A stretch of DNA of 64,000 bases from Selaginella tamariscina. Lineage: Eukaryota; Streptophyta; Lycopodiopsida; Selaginellales; Selaginellaceae. The notes under the pieces were generated by a model. The model saw only the letters and a program-made list of their open reading frames with translations. It was not told the DNA's origin and did not search any database. Every line of letters begins with the position of its first letter. Positions within the stretch are counted from its first letter, which is position 1. Of this stretch, positions 3,526 to 41,831 are shown in pieces. A program made the position numbers and the translations under genes. Location of the stretch: contig PUQB01000033.1 of the NCBI GenBank assembly GCA_003024785.1, forward strand, positions 651,170-715,169, given 5' to 3'.

Positions 3526-3553
3526 GATGCAAGTTGTAACTAAAATGGGCATG
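3526..3553 (+). repeat. Left terminal inverted repeat, copy 1
   Basis: The 20-base core TTGTAACTAAAATGGGCATG (3534-3553) matches the reverse complement of 18245-18264 with one A/G difference. The eight outer bases GATGCAAG resemble TATGCATG found outside the core at two other ends, so the repeat may be 28 bp long. Confidence 0.85.
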
Positions 3554-4033
3554 GCTATAGTCCCATTTCCTAATAATTAGCAATTTTAGCTATTTAATTA
3601 GCATTTTCTAATATTAAAGGAATATTCTTTAGAATATATGTTTGAAAAGAGAATATTCTTTAGAATATTCTATTTTGTATTCTACCCTTTAATAAATTAT
3701 AGCATTCATTGAACAAAAATTAATAACATTATAAAAGTAGAATGTATTAAATTATATAATATATTGCCTAATATAACAATTAAGGAAGAGCATAAGAGGT
3801 ACATTATATAAATATTGATGTTGTTATTAAAATATTAATATTTAAATATAACATTATTAATTAAAAATTTGTAGTAGTAATAATATATATATAAAATCCT
3901 ATAATAATATAGTCAATCTTCCATATCATTTTTTAAATTTATATAGTTAAGTATACAATTTGGTACTATTATTAAAGAGTTTATAATAATTATGAATATT
4001 AAATATATGATATTTTATAATTTTGTAATTGCT

Positions 4034-7000
4034 TTAAGCTTCAGAAAACATACATTCCCTTGCAGTTTTGTTAATCGTGACTTTATCAACGCTTCTTGAC
4101 ATCCACCCATATCGAATGGATTTAACATTTATAAAACATGCTGGGTCTTTTTGATTGGGAGACCATGTTTTCTCTAGGCATCCATTATATCTTTCGCTCT
4201 CCTTCTCGTGTCGCCTTTTTTGTGGTTTGAACCATGCAACCTTAACAATACTATTTTTTGTGATTACTTCAGGTGTGTCGATAATTTGACCCATCCAAAT
4301 AGGCTGATTATATGACGCATCTGGAGTAATGAGAACCATCATTAGTTTTTGAAGATCCTTGCAGCAATCAAAGTATGCTTTAGGTTTTTGGTTCCTTTGT
4401 CCAACAAAGTGTGGGGTTTGCACTTCCACATCACTACTGGCTTCTATGTCGTCTATGCTCAGTGATGTCATTTCAATCTCCTCTCGCCACCTTGTTTTAG
4501 GCCAGAAAGGGTGTTGCAATTCTGTACTTGTGACAGTAGGCCCTTCCAACTCTCGAACAACAGTCTCCCAATAGTTGACCACATGCTTATATAGTTCTGA
4601 GTAACCAGTTGCCTTATCAGAATTCTTTGGCATCGATTTTTGAACCCATGCCACATATTTTTTGATGCCATCAATAATAACCTCTTGTTCCTTGAGCTGG
4701 GCACTCAATGGAATAGGGTCTGGTTGTCCTTCTGGGAGAAGTGGCTTTCCATCCTCTCCACTTTTGAAGAGCATTAAGCCCTCTTTCGGTAACCACTCCT
4801 GCTCTGATGGCCGTAACTTGTACTGCATAATAGGTATACCATCTCGTATGGAGAAAAAGAATTGTAGCGGCACAAGGTGACCAACTAAAGAATCACTCCC
4901 TCTTTTATATACTCCTTGAGAAATTTTTTGAAGTCTGGCACCTCAGTCACAAGCAAAGCACAACTTTTTTTGGAGATGCAATTTTCAAAAAGATTCATCA
5001 TATGCGGTAAGGTAAGTGCACTTGTCCTTTTTTGTAGAGTTGGAGACCTTGCTGAAGAACGCATCAATATCTTCATGAGTGTGACCAACCATAAGGAAAC
5101 TGAGCGTGATTGTTTCAAACACACCTTTGGCAACAAGCATTGACAAGTATGCTAGCACATATCTAGAAAATAAAAGTAAGTATGAGCTTGAGAAACCCTT
5201 AAGTAAAATGATTTACCTATTTTTGTTCTCGCCTGCACAATTATCCATCTGTAAAAGCAAATGACGAGGAAGCTTATTTGATGTTGAGGACACATGTACA
5301 CTATTTGAGCTAGATCCCTCCACTGAACCTGAACTCTCAACAGGGCCATCTTTTTTTGTGCAGGTTGCTGACAATGCCTCTCATATTCCCAAGTAGCCTC
5401 AAGTGCAGACGTGTTCATGAGAGCATTATGTAAAGGTTGAAGGTGTTGTTTCTTCACTTTGAGATCACTGATAGGACTTGTCTGTGAGTGGGCTTCAAGG
5501 TTTCTGAAACACATGGCTAACGACCCAATAGTGAAATTGGAGTCGCTAGACCAATGTGGAAGTGAAAAGTGTCCATATGACTCACAACCGTGTCCATGTG
5601 TTAGCACACCTGTCAATGAAATCGGAAGTTTCATGACATTTCCAAGGCACTTTGGTGTTGCAAAGAGCTTTGGAATGCTGGTCTTTGAATGATCCATCTT
5701 GTCATGGATCAAGCACAGGTACTCTGATGGGCGTGACACAGAAAGCATGCGGTGTGCATAGTACTGAGACCGCAAGTTTGTTGTGCAATCATGTGGGCCT
5801 CCATCTTCCTTTGAATGGTAGTGATCTCCACCAAGGTTTTTGCACAAGCCTCTGCAGCCTTCAATGATGTACAAGTGTCACACTTAGAAAAGCTAGAGTG
5901 TTTTGCAATCTCCACATCCTTAAAATGAGTATTCCATATGTTGTTGAAGGTACCAGTGCAGATTGCTTGGAGCCCCATCAAACTGAGGCACTTGTTCACA
6001 TGTTCACACAGTTTCAATTGAGTGTAGATTGAAGGTAAAACCTTGAGATTTTCCCTGACCCCTGCATTTGTGGTTCGGCATTTGTGAGGCATCCTGTCTG
6101 CATTTGCTTCCACAAAAGCCTTGAGTATCTCTATGGCTGCCATGATGTGAGAGCGGGTTTTGACCAAGCGAGTGTTCCCATGAACTGAGGTTCGCGCTCC
6201 ATCTAGCCACTCATCCCTCCGACGGTAGAACGTGGTCTTTGGGATCCCGTATATACTGTACCAAGCTTTGAAGCAGATGGCCACCTTATTAAATACCATG
6301 GATGTACTCTGATAACCTGTGTCCGAGGCCATTCCATCAATACACCCAGTTAGTGCAGCATATACAAACTCATGCCTTTGCTTTTGGGTGAGCATACGAA
6401 AGACATGTCTACATTGGGTAATTTCATTCCGGTCTGCCATCTGACAACACTTCTTCTTGCAACAGTCAATCGTGGAAATGCTCGTAACACTTTCGGAAGA
6501 TGTAGGATCCATCTTTACCCTCTTGCTGAAACTTGCAGGGGAAGATCTACAACCCATGAATCGCCTTTTTCTTACAATAGGACCAATGCAAGGAACCTCT
6601 TCAAATATGAGTTGTTCTTCCGGGTTGTTATTATTGAAATCCAACCCAGAATATGTTGAACCATCTTGCCGTCTTAATTCAGATGTTCGCCACCTCACGA
6701 GGGATCCAGGATACAATGTGCCATTAGGTGAAACCTCTGTCACAACTACACCCACGAAGTCGGACCCTAGTTTCTCTTCTGACACTGCTTCCATTGGATT
6801 TATAGCTGTGATGATGCCTCTTCCGACTTCAATCTCACGAAGAAAGAGAATCACCTCATCCATCACAGCAGGCAAGCCATCATCTGGTAAACTCGTGCTA
6901 CTATTTGTTTGTGACTCTGCATATTCTGTGTCAGCCTTGACTTCATCCAAATTCCACAATACAGGAGAACCCTCCTCAAATTCCATTCCCAGAACCTCAA

Positions 7001-7151
7001 CATGCTTGTAAATGGTGTTCACCCATACGTACACACAAGATCCTTGGGCAATATTGTGACATGATGCATTATTATCTCGAACTTCCACAGTTCCAGTGCC
7101 AACTATCTCGTTGTTCCGAAGAAGACATACTTTATCTCCAGTATTAAACAT
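4034..7151 (-). CDS. DUF7869-type transposase/integrase-like protein, copy 1 (frameshifted as read)
   Basis: Two coding exons are joined over a short intron at 5163-5216 (donor GTAAAT, acceptor TTCTAG). The ATG at 7151 is the first in frame; a TGTGCAG acceptor just before it suggests an upstream non-coding exon. The N-terminal part (codons GDKVCLLRNNEIVG) looks like a small beta-rich domain. The middle carries an HTH-like stretch near YGIPKTTFYRRRDEW and Cys pairs (CCKKKCC; KCDTC). The C-terminal half has the hallmarks of DUF7869 proteins: IHDKMDHSK, then MDNCAGENKNR split by the intron, then VGHTHEDIDAFFSKV, acidic residues spaced as in an RNase-H-like nuclease. Two single-base shifts near 5355 and 5770 interrupt the frame; copy 2 (28914-32017) reads differently at these points. 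The family link to DUF7869 is from memory of its motifs; the nuclease role is inferred. Confidence 0.75.
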
Positions 7152-7304
7152 ATTGTCCTGCACATAAATAATTGTATTATTTATGATATCTGTTTATGCA
7201 ATATTTTAAGAAATCTGAATTACGGTTACTTAATAATATGCATATGCAATAATACATAATTATGTTTAGAGATAATATCTCATGTTTGATTAATACAACT
7301 GATG

Positions 7305-8177
7305 GGCGGGATTAATCCCGCCCACGAATCCCTCCGACGAGGAACGGCGGGATTAATCCCGCCGCCGACTCAACCCCTTCGGAGAGAGTCGGCGGGATTA
7401 ATCCCGCCTTGGACTCCCTCCGACAAGGAAGAGCCGGCGGGATTAATCCCGCCGACTCTCTCCGGGAGTCCGGCGGGATTAATCCCGCCGACTCAACCCC
7501 TTCGAGAGAGTCGGCGGGATTAATCCCGCCGACTCCCCGACAAGGAAGAGCCGGCGGGATTAATCCCGCCGCCTCTTCCTCCGGGGAGTCCGGCGGGATT
7601 AATCCCGCCTCTTCTCCGACGGGGGAGTCCGGCGGGATTAATCCCGCCGACTCTCTCGAGAGAGTCCGGCGGGATTAATCCCGCCGACTCCCCCGGAGAG
7701 AGCGGCGGATTAATCCCGCCGGACTCCCCGAGGAGGAAGAGGCGGCGGGATTAATCCCGCCGGCTCTTCCTTGTCGGAGGGAGTCCAAGGCGGGATTAAT
7801 CCCGCCCACAATTCTTACGACGGGGAATGGGTGGCGGGATTAAACCCGCACATAACTCTCTCCAAAACTATGATTTCAAAGAGATCTCGGGATAAATCCT
7901 GTCCCCAAATCTTTAAAACAGGAAGTGGTGGCGAGATTAATCCCGCCACCCCTTCCCTGCCTCCTAAAATGGTTGGCGGGATTAATCCCGCCGACAACTC
8001 TTTCTAATAAATTCTGGTAACTCTTCATCAGTTGAGAAGGTTATCGCGGGATTAATCCCGCCACTCTTTTTCAGTGGCGGAGAAGCATTGCCCGAGAGAT
8101 GGTGGCGGGATTAATCCCGCCACCTCTTCGAAGAGGCGAAAAAGAAATGGCCGGATTAATCCCGCCGCCCCGGTTAA
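7305..8177. repeat. Palindrome array A, copy 1 (about 19 units)
   Basis: About 19 exact or near copies of the 18-bp palindrome GGCGGGATTAATCCCGCC, separated by 15-60 bases. Spacers are rich in GACTC/GAGTC blocks and are themselves often inverted repeats, for example GACTCTCTCGAGAGAGTC near 7650, so long hairpins can form. The array starts about 150 bases upstream of the ATG of the leftward transposase-like gene and would overlap its promoter. Units near the right end are more diverged (CGAGATTAATCC, GATTAAACC). Confidence 0.95.
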
Positions 8178-9750
8178 CCTAGAATATTAAGTTAAAAGGA
8201 TATTTAAACGGGATAAATCCCTAACGGAATATATTATAATCCTAATGCATTCCTAAACCCCTAAATTGTAATTTTAAGAGAGAATGTAAGAGAGTGAATC
8301 TTTATAAGTATTTTTAAATTTGTTTATAATACTTACTTGTAAACAGCACTGAAGGCGCCGTGCTTTCCTATAAAGAATAGCACCCAATTTAATCTCGCTC
8401 CTGAGATGATCACTATGAAGAAAAAAGAAGATCTAAAGAGTGAAAAATACAGAAATGAAGAAACCCTTGCCGGAGAAAGAACCAGATCTGAATTTGAGTG
8501 GGAAATTAAATGCATTTTCAAATTTACATGTCAGACCGACAATACATATGTCAGAAATTCAAATTTTTTAAAAAGAACAGAAAATAAAATTTAAGATGAG
8601 TTGACACAAATATCCGACACTCTGACATATATACTCTCCAGTTCCAATGAGTATTTTAAAATTGCATTTAATGTTATTCAAGTGATTCAAGCTGTTTAAT
8701 ATTACGAAATTTTAGACTATATTCTACATTCTTAGTATTCAAGTATATTTATATTATATATATATATAATATATACTTATACAATAAATAAATTGATATA
8801 TTATTATGTATCATTTAAAATATATTCATAGTCTGTTTATTATTATTATTTTCTTAATTACTCGAGTATTTAGTTTTCATTTCCTAGTATCAATGGGATA
8901 TTCTTTAATATTTTATTAATATTTGAAGAATATTCTAATATTAAACCTGATTATCATAATTAAATTAGTCTTGTTCTTAATTATTGCAGTAATTATTCTA
9001 CATTTGTATATATTAATGGGATTTTCTCAATTAATTTGTTATTATTTCAAGAATATTCATGTGTTAAACCTTATTATCAATATTAAATTAATACACACTA
9101 TGAACATATTTTAAATTATACATAATAATACATCATTTTATCTAATATATAGTCATAATAGTTTTAATAATATATATATTAATATCATTTCCTTAATTAC
9201 TTGAGTAATTAATCTTCTTTATATTAATGGGATATTCTTTATTATTTTCTTATTATTCCAAGAATATTCCAATATTAAACATGATTATGATAATTAATTT
9301 AGTTAATTATTTGAGTACTTAATTTACATTTGTATATATTAATGGGATTTTCTCAATTAATTTCTTATTATTTCAAGAATATTTCAATGTTAAACCTTTT
9401 TATCAATATTAAATTAATATATATTATTAAAACTATATATGGCTATATATTAGATAAAATCATATATTATTATGTATAATTTAAAATATGTTCTAGTGTG
9501 TTTATTAATATTATTTTCTTAATTATTCGATGTTTGTTTTGCACACATATATAAACACAATCATAAATTTACACACGCATTACAAGAACTTACAAAAACA
9601 CATATGCACACACATGCACAACCCTAAACCAAACTGAAGAAATATGTTGCTTCTTTATTGAAAACATCATGTTCAACGCATGTATGATATATGTACTCAA
9701 TCTGTGTATGTAACACATTGAATTTACATGTGTAATATTTATATTAAGCT
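8178..9750. other. AT-rich part of the element core
   Basis: No gene is seen. From about 8880 a loose repeat of 130-190 bases recurs (ATTAATGGGATATTCTTTA or ATTAATGGGATTTTCTCAA followed by TTTCAAGAATATTC and a run containing ATTAAACCTTATTATCA). The same pattern is present in copy 2 at about 33660-33960. Confidence 0.6.
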
Positions 9751-9761
9751 TGTTGGGAGCA

Positions 9762-9788
9762 AACCCTAAACCCTAAACCCTAAACCCT
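9762..9788. repeat. Interstitial plant telomere repeat
   Basis: Almost four tandem units of CCCTAAA, the plant-type telomere repeat, lie in the core of the large element. Confidence 0.9.
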
Positions 9789-9851
9789 GTGTATACATGT
9801 GTGTACAAAAATAATTTTTCAACACTCTCTCTTCACACCATGCATGATCCA

Positions 9852-9878
9852 TCCTAAACCCTAAACCCTAAACCCTAA
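9852..9878. repeat. Interstitial plant telomere repeat
   Basis: Three to four tandem CCCTAAA units follow a CATGCATGATCCAT block. Confidence 0.9.
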
Positions 9879-9984
9879 TATGTAACACAATGAATTTACT
9901 CATGTAATATGTATGTATGTCTGTGTGTATACACGTGTGCATGTATATATGTGTACTCTGTATGTATATATGTGTACTTTCTGT

Positions 9985-10300
9985 CTTCTCTCATACATAC
10001 ACACCATGCATGATCCATGTTAATATGTACTGTCTCTCTTCTCTCAAACATACACACCATGCATGATCTATAATATGTACTCGGTCTCTCAATATTATGT
10101 ACTAATATGTATGTATGTCTGTGTGTATAATACACACCATGCATGATCCATAATATGTACTGTCTCTCTTCTCTCATATACTATGTATGTATATCTGTGT
10201 ATAATATGTGTAAGTATATATGTGTACTAATATATGCAATGTGTACAAAAATAATTTTTCAACACTCTCTCTTCTCTCATACATACACACCATGCATGAT
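9985..10300. repeat. Minisatellite with CATACACACCATGCATGATC units
   Basis: Irregular tandem units of about 55-130 bases contain TCTCTTCTCTCA, ATACACACCATGCATGATC and ATAATATGTACT. Related units occur in copy 2 at 34330-34815. No protein coding is implied; open frames here are artefacts of simple sequence. Confidence 0.8.
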
Positions 10301-10314
10301 CCATCCTAAATCCA

Positions 10315-10342
10315 AAACCCTAAACCCTAAACCCTAAACCCA
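10315..10342. repeat. Interstitial plant telomere repeat
   Basis: Almost four CCCTAAA units end the minisatellite block. Confidence 0.9.
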
Positions 10343-10724
10343 TGTAATATGTATGTATGTCTGTGTGTATACACGTGTGTATGTATATATTATGTGTATT
10401 AATATATGCAATGTGTATGTATGTATTGATACACATGAAACTTTAACACTCTCATGGACACACACATGTTAAATCCCTGCATGATTTATATTTTTGGGGT
10501 GTATGTGATACACCCACGCACACGCACGCGCTAATAATATAATGAAAGAATATTCGTTTAGGGCGAATCTATATTTTATTCTTTTTAGGGTTTAAGTATA
10601 TTCTCAGAAGGAATATTCTATTAGGGTTAATATATATATTTAATTCCTTTAGGGTTTAGGTATATTCTTAGGGTTTCAAGAGGCGGCGGCTGTGAAATCG
10701 GCGGCGGCTGTGCACACAGGTGAG

Positions 10725-10725
10725 A

Positions 10726-10766
<41 letters not shown>

Positions 10767-11033
10767 ATATGTATAGGAGTGTGCGTATAAATTTATTTAT
10801 TAGTTTTATCTCTCGCACACACACGCACACTCCTGTGTATGTATATGTGTGTGTGGGTGTGTGTTTGTTTATCTGTATGATTTTATTTGTTTCGCTCACA
10901 CACGCATACACACGATATACATATACACATATATATATATACCTATATACATATATACATACATATATTATGTGTACCAGTATCTGTAAATTTTTTTTTA
11001 TTGATCTATCTCTCCCACACACACGCACACTGC

Positions 11034-11077
<44 letters not shown>

Positions 11078-11712
11078 ATCAATGCATATTAACAAATAGT
11101 ATACAACACTAGTTTATATATATGCTTATATATTCATATGGGTTATATATCTATATACACACATATATATATGTGTGTGTTTATCTGTATAATTTTATTT
11201 ATTTATTAGTTTTATCTCTCGCACACACACGCACACTCCTGTGTATGTATATGTGTGTGTGTGTGTGTGTTTGTTTATCTGTATGATTTTATTTGTTTCG
11301 CTCACACACGCATACACACAATATACATATACACATATATATATACCTATATACATATATACATACATACAACACTAGTTATATATATGCTTATATATTC
11401 ACAGACTCTTCTCTTTCTCTATGGATTATATATCTATATACACACATATATATGTGTGTGTTTATCTGTATAATTTTATTTATTTATTAGTTTTATCTTT
11501 CGCACACACACGCACACTCCTGTGTATATATATGTGTGTGTGTGTGTTTGTTTATCTGTATGATTTTATTTGTTTCGCTCACACGCATACACACGATATA
11601 CATATACACACATATATATACCTATGTACACACATATATTATGTGTACCAGTACTGTATAATTTTATTTATTTATCTATCTCTTGCACACACACGTACAC
11701 TCCTATACATAC

Positions 11713-11755
<43 letters not shown>

Positions 11756-11820
11756 TATATATGTGTGTTTTTTATCTGTATAATTTTTTTATTTATTAAT
11801 TTTATCTCTCGCACACACGC
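10725..11820. repeat. TG/TA/CA microsatellite block with a tandem 280-410 bp higher-order unit
   Basis: Runs of TG, CA and TA are organised into a larger unit. The marker TTTTATCTCTCGCACACACA recurs near 10805, 11210, 11488 (with CTTTCG) and partly near 11800, each time followed by GCACACTCCTGTGTAT and a TTTGTTTATCTGTATGATTTT segment. Copy 2 keeps only a shortened version (about 35165-35535), which explains most of the length difference between the two copies. Confidence 0.8.
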
Positions 11821-11833
11821 TAAGCCCCTCGAG

Positions 11834-13109
11834 CGGCGGGATTAATCCCGCCGCTATAGGTTTATGGCCTCGGCGGCGGATTAATCCCGCGCTATAGGTT
11901 GGGGCCATGGCGGCGGGATTAATCCCGCCGCTCACCCATGCCCTGCGCGGAATGCGGGGATTTATCTCGCCGGCAATGGCCTGTGTGAAGGCCCTAATGG
12001 GCGGATTAATCCCGCCGGATTCGCGCAGGGCATTTACAGGGGATGGGCGGCGGGATTAATCCCGCCGCTCATGAGGCTAACCGAAGAGCCTGCATGAAAG
12101 ATCCTGCACGGAAGGCTAACCGAAGAGCCTGCATGACATGTCCTGCGCGTAAGGCGGCGGGATTAATCCCGCCCAGGGAATTCACGCAGGACATGAACGG
12201 CGGGATTAATCCGGCCCCACGCTCATGCCCTTCGCGGAGGGCGGCGGGATTAATCCCGCCGCTCAGGCACTTCCGCAGGATATAAGCGGCGGGATTAATC
12301 CCGCCCCCACCCATCCCTGTTCAAAATGCCGCAACAATATATATGTGTAGCGCATGATTTACGAGAGGGCGGCGGGATTAGTCTCTCCGAACCTTCATTA
12401 CCCGGTGGCGGGATTAATCCCCCACCCTTTTTTTTCCTCCATTGGTATGTTGAATCAATCCCGACTAACTCTGTCTGAGACGGAGAAGGTTTACAAAATA
12501 CCAATGGAGGGAACTGAGAAGTGGTGGGATTAATTTCACCATCCCTTACATGGTGGGCGGGATTAATCCCGCCGCGTACGCATGCCCTGGCGGAATCGGG
12601 TGGGATTTATCCCGCCGCCATTGGCCTGCCTGAAGTGCCTAGGCGGCGGGATTAATCCCGCCCGTTCCGCACAGGGAATTGGCGTCCGCGGGATTAATCC
12701 CGCCGCATAGGGACCGAGTGAAAGCCCTGGGCGGGATTAATCCGCCGAGTCTTCAATGCCTGTTGGAGGAATGAATCCCGCCACCCTTCCTTTGTTTTCT
12801 ACATTGGTGAGTCAAACCAATCCCAAACGTTTCTGTCTGAGACGTAGAAGGTTTTCAACATACCAATGGAGAGATGGAAGGGTGGGGAAATTCATTTAAC
12901 CAACTTACATGGTGGGCGAGATTAATCCCGCCCCCTTTCTGGAGTCACTGAAGGGGTGTGAGAAATAAATCCTGCCCAGTTCTCTCTGAGACCGAGAAGG
13001 GTGGCAAGAAATTCCGCACTCCCGTTCAAGGCCTCCAGAAAGGTGGCGAGATTAATCCCGCCCACTCTTTCAGGAGGCATTGAAGGGGTGGCGAGATTAA
13101 TCCTGCCGC
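11834..13109. repeat. Palindrome array B, copy 1
   Basis: More than a dozen units of the same 18-bp palindrome as array A, with variants such as GGCGGGATTTATCCCGCC and GGCGAGATTAATCCCGCC. The spacers are unlike those of array A: they contain ATGCCCTGCGCGGAAT, CCTGCCTGAAGGGCCTAGG and CCGAGTGAAGGGCC. Pairs of spacers are complementary across a unit (ATGCCCTGCGCGGAAT against ATTCCGCACAGGGCAT), giving longer imperfect palindromes. The array ends about 340 bases upstream of the ATG of the rightward ParB/methyltransferase-like gene. Confidence 0.95.
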
Positions 13110-13220
13110 ACCTTCCATGTGAATATATATGTGTATTAGTATATATAAGTTGCATATCTCATTTATTTACTTTTATCATCTTATCATAATATTTCGAGTA
13201 AAAGCTAGGAATCTATGTAA

Positions 13221-13306
13221 AACTGTCCAGAGCTCACATTTGTGGTGTTCTAAAACGAAATGTTATCTTTCTTTTGCACTAACACAAATGTGAGCTTCGG
13301 ACAGTT
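13221..13306. repeat. 86-bp hairpin upstream of the ParB/methylase-like gene
   Basis: The arms 13221-13244 and 13283-13306 pair at 22 of 24 positions (AACTGTCC, two mismatches, then GCTCACATTTGTG). It lies between array B and the gene start. Copy 2 has the same structure at 36779-36864. It may be a transcript or promoter hairpin, or a very small inserted inverted-repeat element. Confidence 0.8.
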
Positions 13307-13446
13307 AATTACGTCTACTTCTCTCTGTGTATTATTTTTGTATATTTGGGTTTATACAAGTGTGTGTGCGTTTTTATATAATTTATATTTATAGTGTATT
13401 TTTGCAGAAGGACGATTTGATCAAACAAGGAGATCGAGTCATTAGT

Positions 13447-16400
13447 ATGGAGTCGTTGTCAAATTCTGGGTAAGAATTAAAATAAAATCTGTTATACTCG
13501 GATACTTGAATTAATCATTTTTGTATTCAGATGTGGAATTGAGGGTGACATTAAAGACAAGAGCAGGGAGAAGAGATGGGCAGGGGGATTCTGGAATCAA
13601 CTTGGCCATATTTAAGATAAATGGGAAGCGCATTGGAGCAACCATGGCTGCTGTCAAATTAACCTCTGTCACATCCATGGACAAGCAAAACAATGGAAAG
13701 TAGATTCGCTAGTCAAGCACCCGAAAGCAGGCTGCGAACCCAGATTGGACGATGCTCGACACATATGCCTTGTTCCATCCAATGTCACGTTCTCGGATCC
13801 AGAGGTCGTCAGTTACAACATTAATTTCGGGTGGTTTTGTCGACTTGTGGATAATGACGTTCACGTGTTCACTAATGATGTTGACCTTGGAGTTCTTCTT
13901 CAACTCAACGAAAGCCCATCTATGGAGGGGATCCATCTGGATGTCTACTTCGAAGATCTTCAGACTCATCGAGTAGGTGTATTGTCAGGAGATATTGCTT
14001 CACAATACAGAAAATCAGCAAGTGGAGCAATCTTCCCTCTTCACATTGAAGAAGAACACAGCGACATCATAAGGAGATTGAGAGGTGGCTCGGTCTCAGG
14101 TTCTCTACAGATCACGTTCAATTTGCTTAGGAAGCTTTGGGAGCTGGAAGAGTGTGCCGAGAACACTAGAACAGCTGCAGTCGGGGATCACACATGTTGA
14201 TTCGGATCGCAAAAGAAAATCATCAATCGTTTTGTCAGCTGCACCTGTGGCATCTCATGCTGCAATAAGTCACAAGGAAATGATGTTGGATGATAAGATT
14301 TATCCTTGTAGGGTTAAATATTGCAGCGTCAACCCAAACTTCAATTACAGGCCACTCAACCAGGAACGTGTAGCTGAGCTCATGGAGAAGATGAAGGACG
14401 ACAATTCTTATACCGTTCCACATAATGCTGTTTTGTGTCCATACTATGAAAGAAGAAGGGCGCTGACAAAGTCTGGATCACAACACCAGAACAACTCATG
14501 AAGATTCAGACGGAGAATAAAAATCTATCAAGTACTACATCATTAGTGGCCAGCACACAATAACGGCAGCCCAACGACTTCTCGAGAACACAACAAAGGA
14601 ACGATGGCAACAAAACTTTCCGAGCATACCCGTGAGAAGCTGACAAAAAGATCGGCGTTTTTAGCTAAGCCGAATCTCACAATCGAGCAGTACCATAAGT
14701 TATCGGCGGAATGGGACGCTGCCGACACCAACCACTACAACAGCAAAATATGGGAGAAGTTTAAACACACGCGAGCCGTGTGGGAATCTCTTCAGCGACC
14801 ACAAAGAGCTACCGCAGGGAATACACAATCTGCGGAATACCGGGTAAGCAAATTGTTTGGGCGGGATTTATCTCGCCGGTATATTAATCTGTCTTTTTCC
14901 TCAGAGAGTTGAAGAAATTGCAGCAGTTGATTTTGCCCAGGTGGGCGGGAAGGAAACATCCTTTCTGATGATGTTGATTTCTTGCCCCGAAGATAGGATC
15001 TTTGCCAAATGGTTGGGGATTATGGAATCCTTTTCAAAAGGAACACTGAAGAAGAAGCAGACAAGTGAAGGGGAGCCCTCAGAAAAGTCTGCAAAGAAAC
15101 CCAGTAAGACGCCGAAGGCTAAGTCTGTTCAATCTACAAAGGATGTAGACAACGATTTCAAGCTCACATGGTTGAAGCCTTTAAATGGAACAACGATGGA
15201 GGAGATGGAAGTCTTGGCTGATTTGGTGATCGATGGCAAACTACAAATTAATAACAGCAGCCCAACCTCTCCTTTTCATCTCAAGGCAATGGAGTTGAAG
15301 ACGGTCAGGCATTTCAAGGAGTGGTTGGGAATACACTGCCACAAACTGGGTTGGACCTCGACTTCAACATATGAAGAGGTCAGCAAATATTTGCATGTGA
15401 CGAACGATGATATGCTTGTCGAATGGGTGAACCAATCGGAAGATCTAGGCAAGAATCTATTGCACGCCAACGCCAAAAAGGAGAACATTGGGATGACGCC
15501 TTCTCTTATGGCAGTCCTTCAGCAGCGGAGAACCGAATTGAACCTTATAAAGGAGGATGCTACGAATCACGACAAGCCCTACAGATGTTTGTTGTTAGAT
15601 TCGGAGACTTTATGGGGTAACATCACTGCTTGTAGGAAACCGTTTCAATTGTTCGTGATGGATCGGCGGGTGTCAAAAAATCTTTCGACAGATAGGGCAC
15701 TAGAGGATCTGGTGGAGAAACTTAGCCGTGCAAGCATATACATAGAAGGTATTTATTATTGAATTCATGCTTGCGCTCTTCACTGATACCTACTTTTTCA
15801 GGTATTTATTTCTTGATTCTTGCTCATGTCACCGATACTTTTGCCTTCGCCTTCGCCAAGAAGAATAGACATCGTTGGACAGGATTTTATATGAACGATG
15901 CTAATCCCAAGTGCATTGATACTTGTTCACTTGGTTGTTAGGAATGCGCCAAACAATTTCAAGCTTCCAAATGACTGGCCAGGCATCTGTTTGCACTCCA
16001 ACGGCCCTGAACCTCCATCCGATACACCGATAGGTATGAGTGACGTATTCGGCAATGTACGTTATCCAAACATTACAAGTCAAGCGGCACGGAGCATCGT
16101 CAACTTGATCAGGGGTCCTCACAGTGATGCGTGGGTTTTTGACTACTGCACTAGGGGGTCCGTCTTGAAGGAGTGTTACCTTCGGCATACATGTGTGTTT
16201 GCCGTTGAAAGGATAAGACCATGGTTGAGGACCTGAACAAGTGGATAGATTGGGTCTCAACTGAGTACCCCAACGATTCCATAAAGGCGTATTTGAGAAA
16301 GTTCCCTCCAGATAAGTGCGATAGCTCTGAAGGTGAATCTGGTTCAATCTCGGAGTCTGAGAACGAACTTCAATCAGATATTAGACCGGAAGTTATCTCG

Positions 16401-25974: not shown

Positions 25975-26018
<44 letters not shown>

Positions 26019-28437: not shown

Positions 28438-28913
28438 GCTATAGTCCCATTTCTTAATAGCAATTTTAGCTATTTAATTAGCATTTTCTAATATTAAAGG
28501 AATATTCTTTAGAATATATGTTTGAAAATAGAATATTCTTTAGAATATTCTATTTTGTATTCTACCCTTTAATAAATTATAGCATTCATTGAACAAAAAT
28601 TAATAACATTATAAAAGTAGAAGGTATTAAATTATATAATATATTGCCTAATATAACAATTAAGGAAGAGCATAAGAGGTACATTATATAAATATTGATG
28701 TTGTTATTAAAATATTAATATTTAAATATAACATTATTAATTAAAAATTTGTAGTAGTAATAATATATATATAAAATCCTATAATAATATAGTCAATCTT
28801 CCATATCATTTTTTAAATTTATATAGTTAAGTAAACAATTTGGTACTATTATTAAAGAGTTTATAATAATTATGAATATTAAATATATGATATTTTATAA
28901 TTTTGTAATTGCT

Positions 28914-31900: not shown

Positions 31901-32017
31901 ACAAGATCCTTGGGCAATATTGTGACATGATGCATTATCATCTCGAACTTCCACAGTTCCAGTGCCAACTATCTCGTTGTTCCGAAGAAGACATACTTTA
32001 TCTCCAGTATTATACAT
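28914..32017 (-). CDS. DUF7869-type transposase/integrase-like protein, copy 2 (frameshifted as read)
   Basis: This is the homologue of 4034-7151 with the same intron (near 30039-30092) and the same motifs: MDNCAGENKNR, VGHTHEDIDAFFSKV, YGIPKTTFYRRRDEW. The region from MDNCAGENKNR back to the DHSK motif reads in one frame here, where copy 1 is shifted. Damage specific to this copy: a small deletion near 31240, single-base losses near 31480, 31503 and 30605, and a deletion near 29455 that removes several residues. The first in-frame ATG is at 32017. Confidence 0.75.
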
Positions 32018-32167
32018 ATTGTCCTGCACATAAATAATTGTGTTATTTATGATATCTGTTTATGCAATATTTAAGAAATCATAACTGCAGTTGCTTAATA
32101 ATATGCATGTGCAATAATACATAATTATATATAAAATAATATCTCATGCTTTATTAATATAACTGAT

Positions 32168-32962
32168 GGGCGGGATTAATCCCGCCGATCTACCCCTGAG
32201 TGAGTCGGCGGGATTAATCCCGCCGCGACTCTACCCCATCGAGAGAGTCGGCGGGATTAATCCCGCCGCGACTCTACCCCTCGGAGAGAGGCGGCGGGAT
32301 TAATCCCGCGCGCTCCCGCCGACTCCTCCGTCGAGAGAAGCGGCGGGATTAATCCCCGCCGGGCTCCCTCCGACGAGGAAGTAGCGGATTAATCCCGCCG
32401 GGCTCCCTCCGACTAGGAAGTACCGGCGGGATTAATCCGCCGCCGGATCTTCCTCGTCTGTGAGAGTCGGCGGGATTAATCCCGCCGCAAATTCCTCCGG
32501 AGGAAGAGGGGCGGGATTAATCCCGCCCACAACACTGACGACGGAGAATAGGCGGCGGGATTAATCCCGCCCACAACTCTGACGACGGGGAATAAGCGGC
32601 GGGATTAATCCCGCCCACAACTCTCTCCGAAACTATGATTTCAAAGAGATTCGGGATGAATTCTGCCCACAAATATTTAAAACAGGGAAGTAGTGGCGAG
32701 ATTAATCCCGCCACCCCTTCTCTGCCTCCTAAAATGGTTGGCGAGATTAATCCCGCCGACAACTCTTTCTAATAAATTCAAGTAAATCATTATCAGTTGA
32801 GAGAGTTATCGGCGGGATTAATCTCGCCGCTCTTTTTAAGAGGCGGAGAAGCATTGCCCGAACTAATTCTGCCATAGCTATGAAAGAGATGGTGGCGGGA
32901 TTAATCCCGCCACCTCTTCAAAGAGGCGAAAAAAAATGGCCGGATTAATCCCGCCGCCCCGG
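32168..32962. repeat. Palindrome array A, copy 2
   Basis: The same 18-bp palindrome as at 7305-8177, again about 150 bases upstream of the transposase-like gene. The number and spacing of units differ from copy 1, so units are gained and lost, while the right end (TTATCGGCGGGATTAAT and GATGGTGGCGGGATTAAT) is collinear. Confidence 0.95.
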
Positions 32963-35540
32963 CTAACCGAGAATATTAAGTTAAAAGTATATTTAAACGG
33001 GATAAATCCCTAACAGAATATATTGTAATCCTAATGCATTCCTAAATCCCTAAATTCTAAAATTTAAGAGAGAATGTAAGAGAGTGAATCTTTATAAATA
33101 TATCTAAATTTGTTTATAATACTTACTTGTAAACAGCACTGAAGGCGCCGTGCTTTCCTATAAACAATAGCGCACCCAATTTAATGTCGCTCCTGAGCTG
33201 ATCACTAAGAAGAAAAAAGAAAATCTGAAGAGTGAAAATGAAGAAACCCTTGCCGGAGAAAGAACCAGATCTGAATTTGAGTGGGAAATTAAATGTATTT
33301 TCAAATTTACATGTCAGACTGATAATACTTATGTCAGAAATTCAAAATTTTTGAAATAACAGAAAAGAAAATTTAAGATGAGTTGAAACAAATAACCGAC
33401 AGTCTGACATATATACTCTCCAATTCCAATGAGTGTTTTAAAATTGCATTTAATGTCATTCAAGTGCTTCAAGCTGTTTAATATTACGAAATTTTTGTAA
33501 TTATTCTACATTCTTAATATTCAAGTATATATTATTAAGTTTATATTATATATATATATACACTAATACAATAAATAAATTGATATATTATTATGTATCA
33601 TTTAAAATATATTCATAGTCTGTTTATTATTATTATTTTCTTAATTACTCGAGTAATTAATTTACATTTCCTACTATTAATGGGATATTCTTTTTATTTT
33701 CTTAATATTCAAAGAATATTCCAATATTAAACATGATTATCATAATTAAATTAGTCTTATTCTTAATTATCTCAGTAATTATTCTACATTTGTATATATT
33801 ATGGATTTTCTCAATTAATTTGTTATTTTTCAAGAATATTCTAGTGTTAAACCTTATTATCAATATTAAATTAATATATATTATTAAAACTATATATGGC
33901 TATATATTAGATAAAATCATATATTATTATGTATAATTTAAAATATGTTCATAGTGTGTATATTAATATTATTTTCTTAATTATTCGATGTTTGTTTTGC
34001 ACATATTATATATAAACACAATCATAAATTTATATATACATGTGCACACGCATTAGAAGCACTTACAGAGACACATATGCACACACATGCACATTGCCCT
34101 AAACCAAACTTGAGAAATTATATGTTGCTTCTTTATTGAAAAACATCATGTTCAACGCATGTATGATCTATATGTACTCAGTGTGTGTGTATGTAACACA
34201 TTGAATTTACACATGTAATATATATGTATGTCTGTGTGTATACACGTGTGTATGTATATATGTGTACTAATATAATATATGCAATGTGTACGATTTTCAT
34301 TTGTTAACACTCTATCTCTTCTCTCATACATACACAGTGTCACCATGCATAATCCCTTCTCTCATACATACACACCATGCATGATCATGATCCATAATAT
34401 GTAGCCTGTCTCTTCTCTCATACATACACACCATGCATGATCCATAATATGTACTGATGTTACAATATTATGTAATATGTATAATGTATATCTGTGTATA
34501 ACACTCACTCCTCTCATACATAAACACCATGCATGATCCTCCTAACCCTAAACCCTAAACCCTATGAATTGAATTTACACATGTAATATGTATGTATGTC
34601 TGTGTGTATACACGTGTGTATGTATATGTGTGTACTAATATATCCAATGTGTATGAATTTAATTTGTTAACACTCTCACTCTTCTCTCATACATACACAC
34701 CATGCATGATCCATGTAAATATGTACTGTCTCTCTTCTCAAACATACACACCATGCATGATCCATAATATGTATTGTCACTCTTCTCTCATACATACACA
34801 CCATACATGATCTGTACTCTGTCTCTCTAATATTAATATGTACTAATATGTATGTATGTCTATGTGTATAATACTATGTGTGTATATATGTATCGCTGCA
34901 TGTGAAACTTTAACACTCTCATGGACACACACGTGTTAAACCCTGCATGAATTTATTCTTGGGGTGTATGTGATACACCCACGCACACGCACACGCTGAT
35001 AATATAATGAAAGAATATTCGTTTAGGGCGAATCTATAGTTTATTCTTTTTAGGGTTTAAGTATATTCTTAAAGGAATATTCGATTAGGGTTAATATATA
35101 TTCTATTCCTTTTAGGGTTTAAGTATATTCCTAGGGTTTGTAAGGCGGCGGCGCGGCGGCGTGGAAATCTCCTTCTCTCTCTCACACAGGTGAGATCTCT
35201 CTCTCTCTCTCTCACACGCACACTCCTCTGAGTTTATTTTTATTTTTATTCACATATATATTTATATGTGTGTGTATCTTAATAATATAATTTAGATCTC
35301 TATCTCTCGCACACACACGCACACTCGTATACATATATACACAGATATATATATATATATATATATCTTCTCTCTCTCTCTTCTCTATAGATCTCTATCT
35401 CTCGCACACACACGCGCGTATATACATATACATATAGTGTGTGTGTATATGTATAATTTTATCTGATTTGACTATCTCTAGCACACACACGCACTCTCCT
35501 ACACACATATACATATATATATTTGTATGTGTGTGTGTGT
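32963..35540. other. Core of element copy 2 (AT-rich, minisatellite, microsatellite)
   Basis: Counterpart of 8178-11830. No gene. It holds the ATTAATGGGATATTC repeats (33660-33960), a CATACACACCATGCATGATC minisatellite (34330-34815), a telomere repeat and shortened TG/TA/CT tracts (35165-35535). Confidence 0.7.
34543..34564. repeat. Interstitial plant telomere repeat, copy 2
   Basis: About three CCCTAAA units, collinear with one of the three stretches in copy 1. Confidence 0.85.
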
Positions 35541-36668
35541 AGCGGCGGGATTAATCCCGCCGTTATATAATTAGCCACTCGGCGGCGGGATTAATCCCGC
35601 CGCCATTTCAGGTCCGAGTGAAGGGCCTGGGCGGCAGGATTAATCCCTCCGCCTACGCATGCCCTGCGCGGAATTGGGCGGATTTATCCCGCCGCCATTG
35701 GCCTGCCTGAAGGGCCTAGGCGGCGGGATTAATCCTGTTGGATTCCGCACAGGGCATTGGCGTCCGGCGGGATTAATCCCGCCGACTAAGGCCCGAGTGA
35801 AGGGCCTGGGCGGCGGGATTAATCCCGCCGCGTACGCATGCCCTACACGGAATCGGGCGGGATTTATCCCGCCGCCATTGGCCTGCCTGAAGGGCCTAGG
35901 CGGCGGGATTAATCCCACCGGATTTCGCACAGGACATTGGCGTTCGGCGGATTAATCCCGCCGACTAAGGCCCGAGTGAAGGGCATGGGCGGCGAGATTA
36001 ATCCCGCTGGACGCCAATGCCCTGCGCGGAATCGGGCGGGATTTATCCCGCCCGATTTCACGCAGGGCATTGGCGTCGAGCGAGATTAATCCGCCGCCTA
36101 GGGCCCAAGTGAAGGGTGGGGGCGGCGGGATTAATCCCGTTGCCCTATGCGGATCGGCGGGATTAATCCCGCCGCCAAAGGCCTGCCTAAAGGGCCTAGG
36201 CGGCGGGATTAATCCCGCCCGATTTTGAGCAGGAAATTGGCGTCCGGCAGATTAATCCCGCCGCATAGGAACCAAGTGAAAGCCCTGGGCGGCGGGATTA
36301 ATCCCGCCGAGCCTTCAATGCCTGTTGGAGGAATGAATCCCGCCACCCTTCCTTTTTTCTCCCTTGGTGAGTCGGACCAATCCCAAACGATTCTGTCTGA
36401 GACGTAGAAATTTACAACATACCAATGAGAGAACGGGGGGTGGGAAATTCATTTAACCATCCCTTACATGGTGGGCGAGATTAATCCCGCCTCCTTTCTG
36501 GAGTCACTGAAGGGTGTGCCAAATAAATCTTGCCCAGTTCTCTCTGAGACGAGAAGGGTGGCAAGATTAATTCCGCACTCCCGTTCAAGGCCTCCAGAAA
36601 GTGGCGAGATTAATCCCGCCCATTCTTTCAGGAGGCATTGAAGGGGCGGCGAGATTAATCCCGTCGCA
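35541..36668. repeat. Palindrome array B, copy 2
   Basis: Here the higher-order order is clearest: a block of about 180-190 bases (spacers ATGCCCTGCGCGGAAT, CCATTGGCCTGCCTGAAGG, GATTCCGCACAGGGCATTGG, GGCCCGAGTGAAGGGCC, each followed by a palindrome) repeats several times. Around 36020-36075 the arms extend to a palindrome of more than 50 bases centred on GGGCGGGATTTATCCCGCCC. Confidence 0.95.
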
Positions 36669-36778
36669 CCTTCCATGTGAATATATATGTGTATTAGTAT
36701 ATATAAGTTGCATATTTCATTTTATTTACTTTTATCATCTTATCAATAATTTTAAGTAAAAGCTAGGAAACTATGTAA

Positions 36779-36864
36779 AACTGTCCAGAGCTCACGTTTG
36801 TGGTGGTTCTAAAACGAAATGTTTCTTTCTTTTGAACTAGCACAAAGGTGAGCTTTGGACAGTT
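36779..36864. repeat. 86-bp hairpin, copy 2
   Basis: Counterpart of 13221-13306 with the arms AACTGTCCAGAGCTCACG and its complement slightly more diverged; total length unchanged. Confidence 0.75.
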
Positions 36865-37004
36865 AATTCCGTCTACTTCTCTCTGTGTATTATTTTTGTA
36901 TATTCGGGTTTTATACAAGTGTGTGTGCGTTTTTTATGATTTGTATTCATAGTGTATTATTTTGCAGAAGGACGATTTAATTAAACAGGAGACGAGTCAT
37001 TAGT

Positions 37005-40000
37005 ATGGAGTCGTCGTTAAATTCTGGGTAAGAATTAAAATAAAATCTGTTATACTCGGATATATGCTTGAACTAATCATTTTTGTATTCAGATGTGGAA
37101 TTGAGGTGACATTAAAGACGAGAGCAGAAGAAGAGATGGGCAGGGGGATTCTGAAATCAACTTGGCCATATTTCAAAAATAAACGGGAAGCGCATTGGAA
37201 CAACCATGGTTGCTATCAAACTAACCTCTGTCATATCGCATGGACAAGCAAAACAATGGAAAGTGGTGTGCTAGTCAAGCATCCGAAAGCATGCTGTGAA
37301 CCCAGATTGAACGATGCTCGACACTATGCCTCGTTCCATCCAATGTCACGTTCTCGGATCCAGAGGTTGCCAGTTACAACATTAATTTTGGGTGGTTTTG
37401 TCGACTTGTGGATAATGACGTTACGTGTTCACTAATGATGTTGACCGTGGAGTTCTTCTTCAACTCAACGAAAGCCCATCTATGGAGGGGATCCATCTGG
37501 ATGTCTACTTCGAAGATCTTCAGACTCATCGAGTAGGTGTATTGTCAGGAGATATTGCTTCACAATACAAAAAATCCACAAGTGGAGCAATCGTCCCTCT
37601 TCACATTAAAGAGAAAACACTGCGACATCATAAAGGAAATTGAGAGGGTGGCTTGGTCTCAGGTTCTTTACATATCACGTTCAATTTGCTTAGCAAATTT
37701 TGGGAGTTGGAAGAGTGTGCCGGGAACATTAGAACAGCATCAATCGGGGATCACACATGTTGATTCGGATCGTAGAAGAAAATCATTAGTCGTTTTGTCA
37801 GCTGCACTTGTGGCGTCCCATGCTGCAATAAGCCACAAAGAAATGATGTTGGATGATAGGATTTACCAGTGTAGGGTTAAGTATTGCAGCGTCAACCCAA
37901 ACTTCAATTACAGGCCACTGAATCAGGAACGTGTAGCTGAGCTCATGGAGAAGATGAAGGACGACAATTCTTACACCGTTCCACATAATGCTGTTTTGTG
38001 CGCATACTACGAAAGACACAAAGGCGCTGACAAAGTGTGGTCACAACATCGGAACAAATGAGGAAGGTTCAGACGGAGAATAGAAAATCAGTTAAGTACT
38101 ACATCATTAGTGGCCAGCACACAATAACGGCAGCCCAACGACTTCTCAACGAACACAAAAAGGAACGATGGCAACAAAACTTTCTGAGCATACCGTGAGA
38201 AGCTACGAAAAGATCGGCGTTTTTAGCGAAGCCGAATCTCACAATCGAGCAGTACATAAGTTATCGCGGAATGGACGCTGCAGACACCAACCACTACAAC
38301 ATCAAAATATGGGAGAAGTTCAAACACACGCGAGCGTGTGGGAATCTCTTCACAACCACAAAGAGCTACCGCAGGGAATACACAATCTGCAGACTACCGG
38401 TAAGCAAATTGTTTGGCGGGATTTATCTCGCGTATATTAATTGTCTTTTTTTTCCAGAAGAGTTGAAGAAATTGTAGCAGTTGATTTTGCCCAGGTGGGC
38501 GGGAAGGAAACATCCTTTTTGATGATGTTGATTTCTTGTCCCGAGGATAGGATCTTTGCGAAATGGTTGGGGATTATGGAATCCTTTGCAAAAGGAACAC
38601 TGAAGAAGAAGCAGACAAGTGAAGTGGAGCCCTCAGAGAAGTCTGCAAAGAAACCAGTAAGACGCGAAGTCTAAGTCTATTCAATCTATAAAGGATGTAA
38701 CAACGATTTCAAGCTCACATGGTTGAAGCCTTTAAATGGAACAACGATGGAGGAGATGGAAGTCTTGGCTGATTTGGTGATTGATGGCAAATTACAGATT
38801 AACAACAGCAGCCCCACCTCTCCTTTTCATCTCAAGGCAATGGAGTTGAAGACGGTCAGGCACTTCAAGGAGTGGTTGGGAATACACTGCCACAAACTGG
38901 GTTGGATTTCAGCTTCAACATACGAAGAGGTCAACAAATATTTGCATGTGACAAATGATGATATGCTTGTCGAATGGGTGAATCAATCGGAAGATCTGGG
39001 CAAGAATCTATTGCACGCCAACGCCAAAAAGGAGAACATTGCGATGACGCCTTCTCTTATGGCAGTCCTTCAGCAGCAGAGAACCGAGTTGAACCTTATA
39101 AAGGAGGATGCTACGAATCACGACAAGCCCTACAGATGTTTGTTGTTAAATTCGGAGACTTTATGGGGTACCATCACTGCTTGTAGGAAACCGTTTCAAT
39201 TGTTCGTGATGGATCGGCGGGTGTCAAAAAATCCTTCGACAGACAGACACTAGAGGATTTGGTGGAGAAACTTAGCCGTGCAAGCATGTACAAAGAAGGT
39301 ATTTATTATTGAATTCATACTTGCACTCTTACTGATATCTACGTTTTCAGGTATTTATTTCTTGATTCTTGCTCATGTCACCGATACCTTTGCCTTCTCC
39401 TTTGCCAAGAGAATAAACATCGTTGGACAGGATTTTATATGAATGATGCTGATCCGAAGTGCATTGATTCGGTTGTTCACTTGGTTGTTAGGAATGCGCC
39501 AAACAGTTTCAAACTTCCAAATGACTGGCCAGGCATCTGTTTGCACTCCAACGGCCCTGAACCTCCATCCGATACACCGATAGGTGAGAGTGACGTATTC
39601 GGCAATGTACGTTATCCAAACATCACAAGTCAAGCGGCACGGAGCATCGTCAACTTGATCAGGGGTCCTCACAGTGATGCGTGGGTTTTTGACTACTGCA
39701 CTAGGGGGTCCGTCTTGAAGGAGTGTTACCTTCGGCATACATGTGTATTTGCCGTTGAAAAGGATAAGACCATGGTTGAGGACCTGAACAAGTGGATAGA
39801 TAGGTTCTCAACTGAATACCCCAACGAATCCATAAAGGAGTATTTGAGAAAGTTCCCTCCAGATAAGTGCGATAGCTCTGAAGACGAATCTGGTTCAATG
39901 TCGGAGTCTGAGGACGAACTTCAATCAGATATTAGACCGGAAGTTATCTCGAGGAGTACAGAACATTTGCACACTCCATTACCCATGGAAACATCAATAG

Positions 40001-40098
40001 AAGATGCAGAAGATCTTGAACCATCTCACAAGCGGCTTAGACCTTCTTCGCCTCACTCAGAAGGTAATAGCGAAGAAGAATTGTTAATGAATTGTTAG
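37005..40098 (+). CDS. ParB-like plus DNA-methyltransferase-like protein, copy 2 (frameshifted as read)
   Basis: Same exon order as copy 1. The exon after the first intron reads about 80 codons without a stop, longer than in copy 1, giving CGIEVTLKTRAEEEMGRG and YQTNLCHIAWTSKTMES. ParB-like motifs are at about 37880-38140 (VNPNFNYRPLNQERVAEL; the SGQHTITAAQ coding sequence is present but shifted). The methylase-like C-terminal exon is open from about 39439 to the stop at 40098 and shows PNITSQAARSIVNLIR, FDYCTRGSVLKECYL and FAVEKDKTMV in one frame. The tail is acidic with a KRLRPSSPH cluster. Frame breaks: near 38045, 38200, 38660, 39245 and 39410. Confidence 0.6.
38415..38431. repeat. Palindrome-like unit in the methylase-like gene's intron, copy 2
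   Basis: GGCGGGATTTATCTCGC, the counterpart of the unit at 14860-14877. Confidence 0.7.
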
Positions 40099-40367
40099 AG
40101 TGACGAATAGTTGTAAATGAGTGTAACATAAGGCATTTTTGTATATTTCGTTTATATTTGTACAGAAAATAAATTCTCAAGGATTAATGAAGCTTTTAGT
40201 TCAAACATGGGTCACACATTAACAAGGTAAATAATATACCTTGATAATTTTAAGGTCAGCTAATTATCATTTTGCAGATGTAATGAAACAATTGAGAACA
40301 TGGATTTTCAGCATTGGCATGAGGTAAGAGAGGGGTTTGGCGACAATTTCTTGTGCCACATGTCAGA

Positions 40368-41540
40368 ATGACAGAGTTCATGCAGGAAATGGATAATAAT
40401 GCAGCTCAAAACATCGTTACCATGGGGGCCACTTCAGTTTTTTCATCATCATTTTTATTGGCTTCAGTTCCGAAATCAATTTCTTCAGCGCATGCAATAT
40501 CTGAATCTTGTAAGGATGATGTACAATTAAATGATGAAGGGATAGGCAACGAGATAGTGGCAACGGATAAATGTGAAAGGGAGCAAACAAGTGATTTGCA
40601 AAGTATTCAAGAGGCAACGCTATCTCATGTTACTCATGGCCATATTGTGTTGTTGGATGTCAATGGTGTTCTGCTTCATCGACAAAGGCCCGAGGATAGG
40701 AAAAAAGAAATCAAACAAGGAGATTTCATTCCTTGTCATGGTAAATTTCGATATGATATTATTTTTCGTCCAGGGTTGGATCGTCTCTTTCAAAAGCTTA
40801 AGGAGATGGGTGCGCTTGTGGGGATTTGGTCATGCATGCAGATTCATAACTTAACACCGCTGTTGAATTTACTTAAGAAACATTGTAGTGTTGCAGAAGA
40901 GGTGATTCGTAAAGATTGGATTTTTGACCAGCGAATGTGTTATAAACCTCTCGAATTTCACAATATAAGAAAGGAAAGCAAGCCATACTTCTTCAAGAAT
41001 GAAAGAATAATTGGGACTCATGGGGAGATCAGTCGCTTAAGGATAATGAAGAATGCACATATCTTAGTAGTAGACGACTCTCCTCAGAAGGCTATGCTCA
41101 ACCAAAACATTGCTTGTATTCATCCAATCACTTTCGATCCATATTCTGATACCGATATCATGGATGAGCTAGTGAACTACTTGGATACGTGCCTCAGAAA
41201 GAAGAATCTCGAAAATTTTTGTGAGCAGTATCCACCGTATCATACATTTCCTGAAGCTTTTCTTTCTCGTGATTTTGAATTTTATAAAATGAAGGATAGC
41301 AACCGGGCGCTTTATAATATTATTCTTAAGGAACGTCATTTTTAGATGAGCCTTTATGCAGACCTGGTCTTATTACATCTTATGTATTAACAAGGATGGC
41401 AACTCCCAATTGCATTCGTGAGAGTGTTAGGTGGTGGCAACAACATCAATATTGACCAAAATGATTTGATTAATCCGGAGAGTGATGATTTAGACAAAAT
41501 GAGGAGATTTCTCTGTATGGTTAGGAAGAAAGTATTTATA
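40368..41540 (+). CDS. FCP1-like HAD-family phosphatase, copy 2 (C terminus frameshifted)
   Basis: Nearly identical to 16817-17983. It has an extra in-frame 9 bases near residue 22 (adding Val-Phe-Ser). The HAD loop LLDVNGVLLH, FRPGLDRLFQ and VVDDSPQKA are intact. The frame is lost near 41338, where a single base is missing relative to copy 1, so the uninterrupted frame ends at 41345; homology continues to about 41540 with another small deletion near 41450. Confidence 0.8.
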
Positions 41541-41803
41541 AATAAATTAACATGTTGATAAGGAAATGATTTCATTTGTAATTATGTTTGATAGTATTTC
41601 TTCATTATTGTAAACTATTTTTAGAATAATATGAATATTCTAAGATAGTTTAGGAATATTCCTTACTAAGTAAGGTTATTGAAGGATTAATTAATTAATT
41701 AATTAATATTTAAGGCTTAATTACATATTAATTAAATGATTAATTAATAATTAAAACTTAAGTATTAATTAGTAATTTATTTTATATTCCCATTTTCACG
41801 TAT

Positions 41804-41831
41804 CATGCCCACTTTAGTTACAATGTGCATA
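41804..41831 (-). repeat. Right terminal inverted repeat, copy 2
   Basis: The reverse complement reads TATGCACA followed by TTGTAACTAAAGTGGGCATG. Confidence 0.85.

Follow-up and report, generated by a model that had tools for sequence, protein, structure and literature searches.

Two complete copies of a large DNA transposon are present in a 64-kb stretch of the Selaginella tamariscina genome (64,000 nucleotides of contig PUQB01000033.1; hereafter, the window). Each copy contains a gene for a DUF7869 protein, a putative ParB/methyltransferase-derived gene, a gene with an FCP1/NIF phosphatase domain, and two arrays of a palindromic repeat (Table 1). We consider it an autonomous, recently amplified cut-and-paste transposon with its own DNA-binding regulator acting on the palindrome arrays, and assign to this reading a probability of about 0.72. 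The initial annotation, made from the letters alone, had described two collinear copies of 14.7 and 13.4 kb sharing ends, gene order, two palindrome arrays and a simple-sequence core. The self-BLAST and repeat scans agree with this description, and both sizes were right.

Structure, ends and genomic copies of the transposon

Self-BLAST of the window revealed two main collinear blocks, 28412-32571 matching 3527-7685 (95.5% identity) and 36141-41831 matching 12583-18272 (94.4% identity), with weaker matching blocks between them. The blocks stop sharply, and beyond the element ends no long match between the copies was found in this comparison. Both copies are bounded by terminal inverted repeats (TIRs) of about 27 bp (ATGCA..TTGTAACTAAA, then one variable base, then TGGGCATG) and by 4-bp target site duplications (TSDs). 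Close to both ends, GAATATTC was present in all six element copies inspected. From left to right, the element is composed of a TIR, the DUF7869 gene on the minus strand, palindrome array A, an AT-rich, simple-sequence core, palindrome array B, the ParB/methylase-like gene and the FCP1/NIF-domain gene, both on the plus strand, and the second TIR.

We then searched the host genome, an assembly of 1391 contigs totalling 300.7 Mb. As scoring was limited to the best candidates, the copy numbers given here are lower bounds. With the left 1 kb of the element as query, 42 places were found (40 scored out of 1305 first-look candidates). In 40 of these the match extended over practically the entire query, with an identity of about 100%. 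The FCP1-like protein was found in 107 scored places with 91-100% identity (7079 candidates), and a 281-amino acid (aa) piece of the ParB/methylase-like protein was 100% identical in 138 out of 138 scored places (5549 candidates), among which the window's own locus does not appear. Copies without a large deletion have a size of 13.4-15.5 kb, and one copy of 8.4 kb is internally deleted. The element is therefore a recently amplified one, present in many near-identical copies. In this plant genome of 300 Mb, elements of 15 kb have multiplied to a high copy number in a recent burst. The initial annotation had proposed a mobile element and named the absence of further copies as one observation that would speak against it; many copies exist elsewhere.

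TSDs were examined in a sample of 25 copies, comprising 19 found via the FCP1-like open reading frame (ORF), four others and the two window copies; 20 had been chosen by the FCP1-like ORF, and for one of these the left flank did not exist. Two of the 25 lacked a recognisable end, leaving 23 that were scored. An exact 4-bp TSD was revealed in 12 of them and a TSD displaced by one base in three more, one of these being a 5-bp match. The remaining eight copies had no TSD; in one of these, C402, an ATAT duplication emerges when the altered end is inspected visually. As a control, flanks taken from different copies agreed at 4 bp in only six out of 506 pairings. It should be mentioned that two collinear copies lying 10 kb apart in one window could also have arisen by segmental duplication of a single locus. 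We rejected this explanation and give it practically no weight, since the copies have TIRs and differing 4-bp TSDs, and many copies are located on other contigs with other flanks.

The DUF7869 protein as a predicted transposase

The DUF7869 gene of copy 1 encodes a protein of about 1,021 aa once single-base gaps are read through, and its exons are open in two further genomic copies. The protein, translated across the assembly gaps, matches DUF7869 (PF25273) with an E-value of 9e-47. DUF7869 is a domain of unknown function in Pfam, and a literature search for this term found no paper. Among 7998 scored sequences, 100 homologues were found at E <= 0.001, including those from Physcomitrium, Riccia, molluscs and corals; viral contigs scanned with the transposase (P0003, alignment A1, P0099) contained no relatives.

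Three aspartates (Asp) are invariant in transposase alignment A1, while the first of them is only nearly invariant in alignment A2. The predicted fold is RNase H-like, with matching structural neighbours; a Foldseek search of the model against PDB gave nothing at E <= 0.001, the best match being Tn5 (1.6e-3). Taken together, these features are good evidence for a role of the DUF7869 protein as an RNase H-like transposase of the three-aspartate (DDD) type, as predicted from the model. The enzyme would cut at the TIRs and insert the element with a 4-bp stagger, and a widespread domain would gain a role as the DDD transposase of 4-bp-TSD elements. The initial annotation had argued that the element is not a simple cut-and-paste transposon. 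Our results do not support this view: the TIRs, the 4-bp TSDs and the RNase H-like DDD transposase all belong to the usual equipment of such transposons and fit the Sola superfamily (see below).

The other genes, their relatives and the palindrome arrays

Of the gene assignments made initially, DUF7869 and the phosphatase domain were supported by Pfam (for the latter, see below), while the ParB/methylase assignment was not: the middle protein of the window has no Pfam match to ParB or methylase families. No homologue was found at E <= 0.001 among 4273 candidates, searches of PDB and PHROGs with pieces from the window gave nothing useful, and the ParB alignment had no relatives in viral contigs and no match in PDB at E <= 1. 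The relationship was approached through distant DUF7869 elements.

Scanning GTDB contigs with the DUF7869 alignment revealed 10 loci on eukaryotic-looking contigs, binned as Synechococcales (L001), Trichormus (L002-L008) and Bacteroidetes (L009, L010); these three bins are likely contaminated. All seven loci L002-L008 come from one 'Trichormus' metagenome-assembled genome, and their apparent introns and plant-type Ty3 sequence suggest that they are contigs of a fern (Azolla) binned together with its symbiont. On the moss-like contig L001, which is short, no ParB/methylase gene was seen.

In the five of the seven fern-like loci with enough sequence, a divergent ParB-like ORF is located upstream of the transposase gene. 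It is 566-594 aa long in four loci and shortened to 278 aa in L008, and no Pfam ParB model matches it. Further exons contain the motif ADIPY in all five loci and DLFSGT in the three whose contigs extend far enough. The L007 exon exceeds the gathering score of PF01555 (N6_N4_Mtase), with an E-value of 4e-8. In PDB, the spliced fern-like methylase matches CcrM best (E 5e-6). It is also matched by 428 phage records at E <= 0.01, none of them covering more than 80% of its length. The L007 element (391-8114) is flanked by the 4-bp TSD AACA, and its removal restores an open retroelement frame; therefore, the transposase and the ParB/methylase gene moved as one unit. In L008 and L002, TIRs are present and a clear TSD is absent. 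Bacterial-type ParB/amino-methyltransferase genes thus appear to travel inside plant DNA transposons.

Comparison of the window protein with the fern-like gene revealed a modest relationship. Its ParB-like part contains a GQHT motif and falls in tblastn on the fern-like ORF, at the same place and on the same strand in five loci, with weak E-values (0.06-0.5). The alignment score of the ParB parts was 62, compared with a maximum of 54 in 500 shuffles, and the whole proteins scored 74 against a maximum of 63 in 200 shuffles, being collinear over about 300 residues. For the methylase part alone, 77 of 500 shuffles scored as high (not significant), while for its motif-I piece only three of 500 did. 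With hhalign, the ParB part gave an E-value of 0.009 but a probability of 4.4%, and the alignment of the methylase part was unconvincing. An orphan protein unrelated to ParB and methyltransferases and similar to the fern-like gene in position only would account for the missing homologues and Pfam matches, and for the methylase part that shuffling does not separate from chance. It would leave unexplained why the best tblastn matches share their place and strand across five loci, why the collinear alignment beats every shuffle, and why gene position and orientation are the same; we consider an orphan unlikely. As far as such modest statistics allow, the window protein may be regarded as ParB/methylase-derived and related to the fern-like gene.

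Methylases of PF01555 are expected to contain DPPY-like and GxG motifs. In the window protein motif I reads DYCTRGS, no DPPY-like motif was seen by eye, and the protein is not recognised as a member of PF01555. With its motifs degenerate, it probably lacks methylase activity.

A second ParB/methylase gene family was found in the host genome in five places with E-values of 0.02-0.08 (L067-L072, L074). In the two copies examined it matches PF01555 (E 3e-9 in L068, and 9e-7), and a DGNHR motif lies upstream in L072 and L074; therefore, such genes exist in this host. The match of the family to ddrB-ParB had only an E-value of 0.18. The methylase of this family shows a clear relationship to the fern-like one, with an alignment score of 89 and a maximum of 58 after shuffling. 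Compared with the window protein, the similarity is weak: 10 of 300 shuffles reached the score of the whole protein, and 163 of 300 that of the methylase part. The similarity to the fern-like ParB-like ORF is not significant (42 of 300 shuffles). In one second-family copy, the upstream region of about 4 kb contained no DUF7869 gene but only matches of 29-32 residues (E 0.002-0.006). A window-transposon copy has its left end about 0.1 kb from a recognisable exon of the second family at L073 and L067, apparently inserted in or beside that gene.

The right-hand gene product matches the NIF phosphatase domain PF03031 (E 5e-12; 46 bits, gathering score 21.8); NCBIfam gave no match, and no homologue was found at E <= 0.001 among 2401 candidates. 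Such phosphatases usually have the catalytic motif DxDGT/V. Because the first motif of the translated ORF reads DVNGV instead of DxDGT, phosphatase activity is doubtful. The gene was not found in the ten GTDB loci (best tblastn E 3.5), and is therefore probably a later addition in the window family.

Between the two window copies, dN/dS was 0.20 for the transposase (717 codons), 0.27 for the ParB/methylase gene (632 codons) and 0.56, not significant, for the FCP1 gene (357 codons). Stretches with an ambiguous frame or stops were excluded (four, 903 nt, in the transposase; eight, 792 nt, in the ParB/methylase gene; one, 53 nt, in FCP1), as were pieces shorter than 30 nt, and the choice of frame biases these values toward a coding-like signal. 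In the ParB/methylase region of five copies, variable sites occur at 10 of 41 gap columns and at 31 of 3080 others (p 4e-11); with copy 2 added, the numbers are 16 of 60 and 188 of 3061 (p 7e-7). This enrichment of copy-variable sites at single-base gaps points to consensus errors of the assembly in repeats, the alternative being real decay. Ambiguous bases dropped from a consensus can mimic frameshifts in young repeats. Divergence between the window copies is a mosaic: both ends, and the interval separating the right-hand genes, differ by about 1%, compared with about 9% in one noncoding stretch adjoining array A; such unevenness suggests conversion or recombination between element copies.

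Each element contains two arrays of the palindrome GGCGGGATTAATCCCGCC; the window has 37 perfect copies of it, none of them outside the elements. The fern-like elements have other repeats at the corresponding place between their two genes, consisting of GTCGATGC and its complement. In L007 and L002 they can be seen as inverted pairs separated by a short spacer, and L004 and L005 show them as 12-mers that recur. These were noted by inspection, with no significance test, and the perfect-palindrome scan did not list them. As to the core, its plant-type AAACCCT telomere runs recur in c1022, c471 and c516; copy 2 has a pair and the deleted copy c543 none.

Pieces of host genes are often carried by transposons, and the middle and right genes might be passive passengers of an ordinary Sola-like element, with the arrays as satellite-like by-products. 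The FCP1 gene, not detected in the ten loci and without significant constraint, would suit this explanation. The ParB/methylase gene argues against it, because all five testable distant loci show it next to the transposase gene in an equally divergent arrangement and because its dN/dS is 0.27, and so do the palindromic repeats of other sequence that occupy the same place in distant relatives. We therefore find the passenger explanation rather improbable and return to a transposon with its own regulator. The ParB/methylase-like protein would bind the arrays between the divergent genes and, once bound, control the transcription or chromatin state of the two divergent units. In the fern-like relatives the regulator would perhaps add methyl groups, while in the window family binding alone may suffice. 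By analogy, self-regulation of the element is plausible because the divergent layout and palindromic repeats recur in distant fern-like relatives.

A bolder hypothesis, which we put forward tentatively and with more doubt than belief, is that these elements represent a class of eukaryotic DNA transposons with their own partition/epigenetic module. A ParB-like methyltransferase acting on element-specific arrays between divergent genes would mark the element or shield it from silencing by the host, and tie its expression to copy number, the methylase having been reduced to binding in the window family. If the protein binds or methylates the arrays, the element would offer a testable example of a transposon that brings its own epigenetic regulator, and a possible source of N6-methyladenine (6mA) or N4-methylcytosine (4mC) in plant genomes.

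Table 1. Features of the two transposon copies (window coordinates).
Feature	Position	Strand	Remarks
Transposon copy 1, complete	3527..18271		14,745 bp; self-BLAST, TIR and TSD
Left TSD, copy 1	3523..3526		ATAG
Left TIR, copy 1	3527..3553	+	
DUF7869 transposase gene (predicted), copy 1	4034..7151	-	one 54-bp intron, 5163-5216
Palindrome array A, copy 1	7305..8166		GGCGGGATTAATCCCGCC, mostly 36-45 bp apart; 5' side of transposase gene
Core, copy 1	9761..10341		simple repeats and telomere-type AAACCCT runs (9761-9788, 9853-9878, 10305-10341)
Palindrome array B, copy 1	11835..13107		5' side of ParB/methylase-like gene
ParB/methyltransferase-like gene, copy 1	13408..16544	+	several exons by inspection; single-base assembly gaps; approximate limits
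FCP1/NIF-phosphatase-domain gene, copy 1	16817..17983	+	ORF intact
Right TIR, copy 1	18245..18271	-	
Right TSD, copy 1	18272..18275		ATAG
Transposon copy 2, complete	28412..41830		13,419 bp; self-BLAST, TIR and TSD
Left TSD, copy 2	28408..28411		AAGT
DUF7869 transposase gene (predicted), copy 2	28914..32017	-	interrupted by single-base gaps and small deletions
Palindrome array A, copy 2	32169..32955		
Palindrome array B, copy 2	35544..36665		
ParB/methyltransferase-like gene, copy 2	36968..40098	+	approximate limits
FCP1/NIF-phosphatase-domain gene, copy 2	40368..41545	+	frame broken near end
Right TSD, copy 2	41831..41834		AAGT

Elsewhere in the window, a Ty3-type retrotransposon with long terminal repeats (LTRs) is located at 45503-52834. 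Its LTRs (45503-46484 and 51859-52834) are 99.3% identical, as in a recent insertion, and its gag-pol-like ORFs are on the minus strand. The region 56001-58000 is very AT-rich (18% GC).

Comparison with known systems

According to the excerpt of PMC10741241, Sola elements have TIRs of 11 to 1124 bp, a 4-bp TSD and a DDD transposase; most are 2-9 kb long, some exceed 15 kb, and they are reported from a moss. The window element resembles them in its 4-bp TSD, TIRs (about 27 bp), DDD aspartates and size (13.4-15.5 kb), while genes such as its ParB/methylase and phosphatase genes are not mentioned for Sola in that excerpt. By features, compared with a description and not with reference sequences, the element fits the Sola superfamily. 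Since this fit is based on TSD length, DDD residues, TIRs, size and taxonomic spread, the DUF7869 elements could also form a separate DDD superfamily; all testable Sola features of the excerpt were found here, and we hold a separate superfamily to be possible but doubtful. Assignment to Ginger transposons was rejected, as these require a Gypsy-like integrase and Pfam gives only DUF7869 at E up to 10.

In a search of the literature on Sola and on methyltransferase-bearing transposons, no title among the matches listed describes such an element. Judging from the abstract of PMC5890265, retrotransposons of dinoflagellates and charophytes acquired cytosine methyltransferases, and are similar in being eukaryotic transposable elements with a DNA methyltransferase gene of their own. 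They differ in being retrotransposons with C5-cytosine enzymes, while here a DNA transposon family would combine an N6/N4-type methylase with a ParB-like part. The bdelloid N4CMT, as presented in the excerpt of PMC8885841, is a host gene with a chromodomain fusion that marks transposons for silencing. It is not described there as transposon-carried, and the likeness lies in a bacterial-type N6_N4 methyltransferase domain that functions in a eukaryote.

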